From the NCBI GenBank assembly GCA_027064085.1, contig JAMOQH010000128.1:1-7642 (forward strand): a stretch of DNA of 7,642 nucleotides, read 5' to 3'. Shown here one piece after another: positions 2,871-6,010 of this stretch (the stretch's first letter is position 1; each line of letters starts with the position of its first letter). Position numbers and translations under genes: made by a program. This DNA comes from a bacterium (lineage in GTDB: Bacteria; UBP6; JAFGXH01). Below the pieces are notes generated by a model that was given only the letters and a program-made list of their open reading frames with translations, was not told where the DNA came from and did no database searches.

Positions 2871-3518
2871 TTAAATTTCAACTAAGCCTAGTTTTATAGC
2901 TTCTGAAATAGCTTCTACTTTAGACTTAACTCCTAGTTTTTTATAAATTTTGGATAGCATATATTTTATATTTCTTGGTGTTCTATCAGTAAACGATGCT
3001 ATCTCCTTATAAGTAAATCCTTGAATTAAATATAATAAAACCTCATTTTCACTTGCTTCAAAAATTATATCGTTTTCTTTATGGTTAATTGTTTCAAATG
3101 TTTTAAAATAATTTATAAATTTATTAGCAAGAATTGGTTCTATAACAACACCACCTTCAATGACTTCTATAATTGAATCTTTTAGCTTATAAGGAAGTTC
3201 TTGTTTGAGTATGTAGCCACTTGCTCCTGCTTTAATCGCTTCAAAAACTTTATCTTCATCACTAAATGATGTTAATATTAAAATATTAAAATAATCTAAA
3301 TATTCGTGAATTTCTGTAACAATTTCAACACCTGATTTATCAGGAAGTTCTAAGTCAAAAATACAAAGATCTGGGTAGTGATCTGTTTTTTTTATATAAT
3401 TTAAAAAATCATTAGCACAATAAAAAAAAGCATCAATATTATGACCATATTGTTGTAACATTTTTCTTAGAACAACAGAAAACCTTTTATCATCTTCTAC
3501 AATAACTAATGAACTCAT
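2871..3518 (-). CDS. Two-component response regulator, NarL/FixJ family
   Basis: The 215-residue protein has the full two-domain layout. The receiver domain (about 3-118) has the acidic pocket E8-D9-D10, phospho-acceptor D55 in IFDLELPD, the switch residue T83 (LTS) and the conserved K105 (ILK). The LuxR-type helix-turn-helix (about 154-213) reads ENEVLLYLIQGFTYKEIA, then TPRNIKYMLSKIYKKLGV and a KVEAI tail, so it should bind DNA as a dimer after phosphorylation. No histidine kinase gene lies in the window, so the partner is elsewhere or the regulator is an orphan. AAGGA with a 5-nt spacer precedes the ATG. It begins 23 nt after infC, in the place normally held by rpmI in thrS-infC-rpmI-rplT loci, so it is probably co-transcribed with translation genes. 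Targets are unknown; the two genes downstream are natural candidates by context only. Confidence 0.93.
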   Translation of the reverse strand: MSSLVIVEDDKRFSVVLRKMLQQYGHNIDAFFYCANDFLNYIKKTDHYPDLCIFDLELPDKSGVEIVTEIHEYLDYFNILILTSFSDEDKVFEAIKAGASGYILKQELPYKLKDSIIEVIEGGVVIEPILANKFINYFKTFETINHKENDIIFEASENEVLLYLIQGFTYKEIASFTDRTPRNIKYMLSKIYKKLGVKSKVEAISEAIKLGLVEI

Positions 3519-3541: not shown

Positions 3542-4096
3542 TTAGCTGTTTGTTACTCCAGGGGCAACAATCATAACCATCATGTAGCCTGCCATTGAAG
3601 GGTTTTGTTCTACATGTGCTATATCAGACACCTTTTCGAAAAGATTATTCAAAATTTCTTTTGCTGATTCTGCATATATTATTTCACGCCCTCTAAATCT
3701 AACAACTAGTCTGACTTTATAGCCTAAATTTATGAAGTTTACTAGTTTCTTAGCTTTTACTTCAAAATCATGAGTTTCTATTTTAGGTCTCATTTTTAAT
3801 TCTTTAACTTTTACAACACTTTGTTTCTTTTTGGCTTCCTGCATCTTCTTTTTATGGTCATATTTTAATTGACCATAATCCATAATTTTGCAAACAGGAG
3901 GTTTGGAATTTCCACCAACTTCTACTAAATCAAGACCTGCTTCAAATGCTAATCTTAGAGCTTCCTTAATATGAACAACTCCTCTTTTAACTCCCTTGTC
4001 ATCAATGAGTAAAACTTCTTTTACTCTAATGTCCTTGTTTACATTGTAATTTAATTTACCCGAATCTTTTTGGGGTGTAGAATTCCTAGCTATAAT
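3542..4096 (-). CDS. infC: Translation initiation factor IF-3, full-length with AUU start
   Basis: IF3 binds the 30S subunit, prevents 50S joining, and proofreads the start codon and initiator tRNA. The first in-frame ATG (3883) lies inside the conserved VCKIMDYG motif and would give only 113 residues without the N-terminal domain. The frame stays open and clearly IF3-like upstream: DIRVKEVLLIDDKGVKRG and ALRLAFEAGLDLVEV, then PPVCKIMDYG and a linker to the C-terminal domain. No ATG, GTG or TTG occurs in it. Upstream is AGGAGG (4100-4105), then TAC, then ATT (4096-4094) and ATA (4093-4091), with an in-frame TAA stop further upstream. An ATT start gives MIARNS and 184 residues, near the 180 of E. 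coli IF3. The 3-nt spacer equals that of the acyl-CoA dehydrogenase gene here. ATA, with a 6-nt spacer, is the alternative. Non-AUG infC starts are known to let IF3 repress its own translation. Confidence 0.95.
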   Translation of the reverse strand: MIARNSTPQKDSGKLNYNVNKDIRVKEVLLIDDKGVKRGVVHIKEALRLAFEAGLDLVEVGGNSKPPVCKIMDYGQLKYDHKKKMQEAKKKQSVVKVKELKMRPKIETHDFEVKAKKLVNFINLGYKVRLVVRFRGREIIYAESAKEILNNLFEKVSDIAHVEQNPSMAGYMMVMIVAPGVTNS

Positions 4097-4099
4097 GTA

Positions 4100-4105
4100 C
4101 CTCCT
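4100..4105 (-). promoter_or_regulatory. Strong Shine-Dalgarno of infC, 3 nt before AUU
   Basis: AGGAGG on the minus strand is followed by TAC and then ATT. It is a near-perfect anti-SD complement, as might be needed to support a non-AUG start, and it anchors the choice of the infC start at 4096. It lies in the 21-nt gap after the thrS stop. Confidence 0.8.
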
Positions 4106-4117
4106 AACATAAAATTA

Positions 4118-6010
4118 TTATAACTCACTATTTAATTGATTAATAAAATCAGAAAAAGTAAAACTGCCTAAGTCTCCTTTATCTCTACTTCTAACAGAAA
4201 GAGCATCACTTTCTATTTCTTTATCTCCTAAAATCAGCATATACGGAACTTTTTCCATTTGGGCTGACCTTATTTTATAACCAAGTTTCTCATCTCTTTT
4301 ATCTATTTCTACTCTGAAACCCATATCAAACAGCTTTTCATATATTTTTTGTGCATATTCAATATGTTTTTCTGATACAGGAATAACTTTTATCTGAACA
4401 GGAGATAACCATAAAGGAAACTTTCCTGCATATTCTTCGATTAAAATACCAATTAATCTTTCCAAAGAACCATAAATCGCTCTGTGAATCATTATTGGTC
4501 TATGTTTTTGATTATCTTCACCAACATAAGTACAATCAAATCTTTCAGGAAGAGCGAAGTCTAACTGAATTGTAGAGCATTGCCAAGCTCTTTTAAGAGA
4601 ATCCCTTATTGAAAAATCTATTTTAGGGCCATAAAAAGCACCATCACCTTCGTTAATATCATATTTATAGTCAAGCTCATCTAGAACTTCTTTTAATGCA
4701 GTTTCTGCTTTATTCCAATTTTCTATTTCACCAATAAATTTTTTGGGTCTAGTTGATATTTCAACTTCAAAATCTTTAAAACCAAGTTTGTTATATATTG
4801 TTTCAATTAATTTTATAACTCCCTTAACTTCATCTTTAATTTGAGATGGTAACATATAAATATGGGCGTCATCTTGAGTAAATTGTCTCACTCTCATTAA
4901 ACCATGAAGAGTTCCTGAACGCTCATGTCTATGAACCATGCCTAATTCTGAAAGCTTTAATGGTAAATCTTTGTAGCTATGCATTTGGGAATTATAAACT
5001 ATCATTCCGCCAGGACAGTTCATTGGTTTAATTGCATGTTCCTGTTCGTCTATCTGAGTAAAATACATGTTTTCATGATAATTTGCATAATGGCCTGATT
5101 TTACCCATAAATCTTTGTTTAAGATGATAGGAGTCTGTATTTCTTGATAGCCATCTTTTTTATGTAAATCACGCCAGAAATTAACTAAAATATTTTTAAA
5201 GGTCATACCTTTAGGATGCCAAAAAGGAAAGCCAATACCCTCTTTTTGAAAAGAGAAGAAATCTAACTCTTTTCCTAGTTTTCTGTGGTCTCTTTTTTTA
5301 GCTTCTTCTAGCATATTTAAGTATTCTTTTAGTTGATCTTTAGATGCAAAAGCTGTTCCGTAGATTCTTTGGAGCATTTTGTTATTTTCATCACCACGCC
5401 AATAAGCTCCCGCTATTTTCAACAATTTAAATGCTCTTAGTTTACTTGTTGAAGGAATATGTGGTCCTCTGCATAGATCTATAAAATCACCTTGTTGATA
5501 AAATGTGATTGTTTCATTTTCGGGTAATTCTTTAATGATTTCTACTTTATAAGGCTCGTTTAACTCTTCAAAATGTTTAATTGCATCTTCTCTACTCATT
5601 ATTTTCTTTTCAAATTTATAATTGGATGCAATTATTTTTTTTATAGCTTTTTCTATTTTTTTTAAATCTTCAGGTGCAAAAGGTGTTGCCACATCAAAAT
5701 CATAATAAAATCCATCATCAATAACAGGGCCTATTGTAACTTTTGCATCTTTAAATATTGTTTTAACTGCTTGAGCCATAATATGAGCAGCAGAATGTCT
5801 TAATGTTTCAAGTCCTTCTTTGTCTTCTAGTGAGAAAATTTGATATTCGCTATTATTAATTATAGAATCAGATAGGTCGATAAGCTTTTCATTATTAATT
5901 TTTGCTACAATTGCTTGTTTATATAGTTTCTTGTCATTTTTTTTAAGGAAATCAAGAATATTGATATTTTCTTCAATGTTTTTATATTCAATATTATTTA
6001 TTTTTATCAT
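4118..6010 (-). CDS. thrS: Threonyl-tRNA synthetase
   Basis: The enzyme activates threonine with ATP and charges tRNA-Thr in the cytoplasm. It is complete at 630 residues, with the usual bacterial four-domain layout. A TGS domain covers about 1-60. The N2 editing domain has its metal-site motifs HSAAH (H72, H76) and C180-x3-H184. The class II catalytic core has motif 2 around MVHRHERSGTLHGLMRVRQF (358-377) and motif 3 GSLERLIGI (514-522, R518). Its zinc ligands C332, H383 and H509 are offset by two from E. coli C334/H385/H511. The C-terminal anticodon-binding domain covers about 535-630. All key residues are intact, so both charging and Ser editing should work. GGAG with a 5-nt spacer precedes the ATG. 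A sigma70-like promoter lies just upstream with room for only a short leader, so no T-box riboswitch is present. infC starts 21 nt after the stop. Confidence 0.98.
   Translation of the reverse strand: MIKINNIEYKNIEENINILDFLKKNDKKLYKQAIVAKINNEKLIDLSDSIINNSEYQIFSLEDKEGLETLRHSAAHIMAQAVKTIFKDAKVTIGPVIDDGFYYDFDVATPFAPEDLKKIEKAIKKIIASNYKFEKKIMSREDAIKHFEELNEPYKVEIIKELPENETITFYQQGDFIDLCRGPHIPSTSKLRAFKLLKIAGAYWRGDENNKMLQRIYGTAFASKDQLKEYLNMLEEAKKRDHRKLGKELDFFSFQKEGIGFPFWHPKGMTFKNILVNFWRDLHKKDGYQEIQTPIILNKDLWVKSGHYANYHENMYFTQIDEQEHAIKPMNCPGGMIVYNSQMHSYKDLPLKLSELGMVHRHERSGTLHGLMRVRQFTQDDAHIYMLPSQIKDEVKGVIKLIETIYNKLGFKDFEVEISTRPKKFIGEIENWNKAETALKEVLDELDYKYDINEGDGAFYGPKIDFSIRDSLKRAWQCSTIQLDFALPERFDCTYVGEDNQKHRPIMIHRAIYGSLERLIGILIEEYAGKFPLWLSPVQIKVIPVSEKHIEYAQKIYEKLFDMGFRVEIDKRDEKLGYKIRSAQMEKVPYMLILGDKEIESDALSVRSRDKGDLGSFTFSDFINQLNSEL

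Follow-up and report, generated by a model that had tools for sequence, protein, structure and literature searches.

A likely AUA start codon for infC, the gene of translation initiation factor IF3, in an uncultured low-GC bacterium

Start codons of infC in described systems

The AUU start codon of Escherichia coli infC, with the autoregulation of translation initiation factor IF3 that goes with it, is a textbook case. Feedback of IF3 on its own start codon is established for this AUU and has also been described for an ATC start in Streptomyces, and wrong annotation of infC starts has already been documented (PMC5472188). In Staphylococcus aureus, an AUA start of infC was mapped by retapamulin ribosome profiling (Ribo-Ret), and the authors of that study have already proposed that the gene is autoregulated (PMC13009471). 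The ATT start of infC in Listeria has been confirmed experimentally (PMC13068326). In our own comparisons, infC had no canonical start at all in 15 of 33 genomes (one per family, from 33 families outside the phylum studied here). The same was found for 52 of 80 named infC loci, which were picked by similarity to the IF3 described below and carry automatic start calls, so that they are no census; the codon supported by a Shine-Dalgarno sequence (SD) among these loci was ATA in 22 cases, ATT in 16 and ATC in 8. Starts at AUA, AUU or AUC are thus widespread among infC genes.

We analyzed a stretch of 7,642 nucleotides (the window) from contig JAMOQH010000128.1 of assembly GCA_027064085.1, in which infC represents a further case of this well-known kind of gene start. 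Our main reading, to which we give a probability of about 0.87, is that infC initiates at AUA behind a strong SD, with IF3 feeding back on its own synthesis. Like the E. coli gene, it combines the thrS-infC order, an SD followed by an ATH start, an initiator tRNA with a CAU anticodon and a two-domain IF3, although E. coli uses AUU where the window has AUA, and rpmI-rplT do not come next after infC in the window as they do in E. coli. The S. aureus gene has the same AUA start, but it belongs to an unrelated phylum and its start was mapped experimentally, whereas the one in the window is deduced from sequence. Members of the Rhodobacteraceae and Pseudodesulfovibrio also resemble the window, with an ATA after an SD and the same distance of 18 codons between ATA and domain core, although they belong to other phyla and their start is put forward by the same sequence argument only. 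With the window, the many infC genes that use ATH starts gain an AUA member from a low-GC, uncultured lineage. The case agrees with the idea that AUA, AUU and AUC are interchangeable at this gene and opens no new question.

The infC gene and its N-terminal domain

The source genome is a draft of 3.65 Mb in 195 contigs, and all statistics on it given below come from a sampled part of 717 kb, with a G+C content of 27%. The features of the locus are collected in Table 1. Read from the ATA, the infC product matched both Pfam domains of bacterial IF3 above their curated cut-offs: IF3_N at 4.4e-28 (97.7 bits versus a cut-off of 26.9), with all 70 positions of the domain covered, and IF3_C at 9.7e-30 (102.8 bits versus 34.8). 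The TIGR00168 profile matched at 2.1e-58 and the profile search found the gene in a single copy in the genome, while the E. coli IF3 chain 8jsg matched at 2.5e-40. Read off the 8jsg alignment, the E. coli residues Y70, Y75, R99, K110, R129 and R131 are identical in the window (six of six), several of them having roles in IF3 function.

TABLE 1 Coordinates of features at the infC locus of the window
Feature	Positions	Strand	Basis or remark
thrS, threonyl-tRNA synthetase, upstream of infC	4118..6010	minus	ORF translation; in phylum relatives, the protein encoded ahead of infC aligns with its C-terminus
Shine-Dalgarno AGGAGG, extended TAGGAGGT	4100..4105	minus	Sequence; kept in both relatives
ATT, most likely spacer	4094..4096	minus	ACC in both relatives; only 3 nt from AGGAGG
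ATA, most likely infC start codon	4091..4093	minus	At AGGAGG+6 in 3/3 family genomes
infC, translation initiation factor IF3	3542..4093	minus	183 aa, full length from AUA
First canonical in-frame ATG of infC, internal	3881..3883	minus	ORF listing; product from here without IF3_N

From the in-frame stop TAA (4117-4115) to the internal ATG, the infC frame holds no ATG, GTG or TTG, a statement of the preliminary description that we verified on the sequence and on the ORF listing. The ORF starting at this ATG (3542-3883) encodes 113 aa and matches only IF3_C in Pfam; the complete IF3_N match is absent from it, confirming that the N-terminal domain is encoded upstream of the first ATG. Taken alone, the missing canonical starts are weak evidence, since a run of ~70 codons without one has a chance of about 0.10 at the codon usage of this genome. 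Joined to the conserved domain and the strong SD, the run is no longer weak evidence, and the points that count are that the N-terminal domain is coded in conserved form and that the SD-N6-ATA arrangement is conserved. Among 470 frames of at least 150 codons in the sampled 717 kb, infC was unique in combining an ATH or CTG codon preceded by a strong SD with the absence of canonical starts from its first 30 codons.

It is hardly conceivable that infC begins at the ATG at 3883 and yields only the C-domain of IF3: this is indeed the first canonical start of the frame, but a complete and conserved N-terminal domain is coded upstream of it, and the conserved SD sits at the AUA. Gene callers restricted to ATG, GTG and TTG would nevertheless begin infC there. 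Such a truncation had been foreseen from the noncanonical start, and our results support it, with the correction that an ATA start implies the loss of 70 residues, the earlier figure of 71 holding for an ATT start only. Correcting the annotation would keep these residues, a whole domain, that are otherwise dropped.

Upstream, the thrS stop lies 24 nt from the AUA. In the genome of the window, thrS and infC are together and rpmI-rplT are found on another contig (C105), while both relatives from the same family have infC-rpmI-rplT together, preceded by a gene other than thrS. The usual thrS-infC-rpmI-rplT cluster is therefore split at different joints, as seen in window positions 3542-6010 plus locus L082 versus loci L031 and L032. 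In the place of rpmI, the window carries, directly after infC and 23 nt past its stop, a response regulator (2871-3518) whose output domain is of the LuxR type (GerE). Elsewhere in the genome, a tRNA-Glu/tRNA-Lys pair occurs with the same spacing and scores on each of two contigs, C15 and C153 (L207 and L208).

Choice between AUA and AUU

On the minus strand, AGGAGG is followed by a TAC spacer, the ATT and the ATA, leaving 3 nt to ATT and 6 nt to ATA, exactly where the preliminary description had placed them. The SD thus lies at a usable distance from the ATA. Along the sampled part of the genome, ATG is strongly enriched 4 to 5 nt past AGGAGG, which is also where the spacing of AGGAGG-led genes peaks. 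Since 6 nt and 3 nt are each found in 3 of 37 such genes, spacing alone cannot separate AUA from AUU, and we dropped it as a means of deciding between them. A 16S rRNA gene from which to read the anti-SD was not found in the assembly.

The comparison within the family included the genome of the window and two others (G001 and G002), both from one genus, whose IF3 proteins are 60% identical to that of the window. Both carry TATAGGAGGTGCACCATAGTT, in which the ATA is at the same distance from the SD and ACC replaces ATT, so that the relatives read TAGGAGGT-G-CA-CC-ATAG and the window TAGGAGGT-A-CA-TT-ATAG. As in the window, an in-frame stop closely precedes their infC, and the domain core has no canonical start ahead of it. 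Because the ATA is present in the relatives at an unchanged distance from the SD, whereas ACC stands for ATT, AUA is the likely start codon of infC and ATT a spacer. The preliminary description had allowed either codon, with a preference for ATT, and had suggested aligning the upstream regions of infC from related genomes; in this alignment, ATA was kept in three of three family genomes and ATT was not, so that ATA stands as the likely start and the preferred ATT is most likely wrong.

Initiation at the AUU, as in E. coli infC, appears quite improbable. An in-frame ATT does follow the SD, AUU is the infC start in both E. coli and Listeria, and a 3-nt spacing exists in this genome, but this distance is among the shortest at which an SD can work, and the site is ACC in both relatives while the ATA is kept. 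The idea that an ATG was lost from the infC start by a sequencing or assembly error, for which one could invoke the draft state of the assembly with its 195 contigs, carries a negligible probability. Relatives with an ATG at this position, which had been named as a sign of such an error, were looked for, and both have ATA, in two other assemblies and within diverged surroundings; since three assemblies share the ATA, sequencing error is excluded. A conserved leader peptide overlapping the infC start (MLGGTL and a stop, from an ATG at 4110-4108) was considered and dropped, the relatives lacking an ATG there.

Initiator tRNA, proposed IF3 feedback and start codons within the phylum

The initiator tRNA gene (locus L226) reads TCGGG-CTCATAA-CCCGA, with a CAU anticodon, as in the E. 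coli type of IF3-autoregulated infC, a GGG/CCC stem and a C1/A72 mismatch. An unusual initiator tRNA was rejected, one of the four CAU tRNA genes that we read being a standard initiator. As the anticodon is an ordinary CAU, an AUA start means a mismatch at the third position, and IF3 has been found in vitro to disfavor weak third-position pairs such as AUU read by CAU (PMC10158994).

The logic of E. coli infC, to which the preliminary description had pointed, is the natural reading for the gene in the window. The strong AGGAGG, 6 nt before the AUA, would hold the 30S subunit over this codon, which the ordinary CAU initiator tRNA would read with a third-position mismatch. With IF3 abundant, the initiation complex at AUA would be rejected, while a drop in IF3 would permit more initiation there, and the level of IF3 would in this way be set by IF3 itself, as in E. 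coli. We infer both that cells initiate at AUA and that IF3 feeds back on it; autoregulation of infC is likely, made plausible by the ordinary CAU initiator tRNA and the conserved IF3 residues, and a fair, if not novel, proposal.

That the AUA puts a fixed brake on IF3 synthesis, with no feedback of physiological weight, seems unlikely to us. Noncanonical starts generally lower expression; in poor medium, S. aureus reporters retained ~10% of the AUG level (PMC13009471). No structured operator stood out around the infC start, where fold stability was like that of shuffled sequences (z of 0.54), and Rfam gave no matches in the window. However, IF3 discriminates against exactly such start codons, and some feedback is to be expected wherever IF3 functions normally (PMC5472188).

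Among 22 infC genes from other families of the phylum (L033-L054), none was without a canonical start. There, the thrS stop overlaps the candidate infC start in the form TTGATG or TAATG. In three of them (L050, L052 and L053), ATT replaces the ATG of the overlap and TTG is kept as the only canonical codon, while in two others (L046 and L048) ACG takes the place of this ATG, leaving UUG as the sole canonical codon. Given that the infC genes of the other families keep canonical candidate starts overlapping thrS, and that three have ATT for ATG, the start codon of infC has changed within the phylum. Very tentatively, the way in which infC is started may have switched in this phylum, from a candidate start (UUG, AUG or AUU) overlapping the thrS stop in the other families to a strong SD with AUA, separated from that junction, in the family of the window; thrS-coupled re-initiation may then have given way to control mainly through IF3 feedback.
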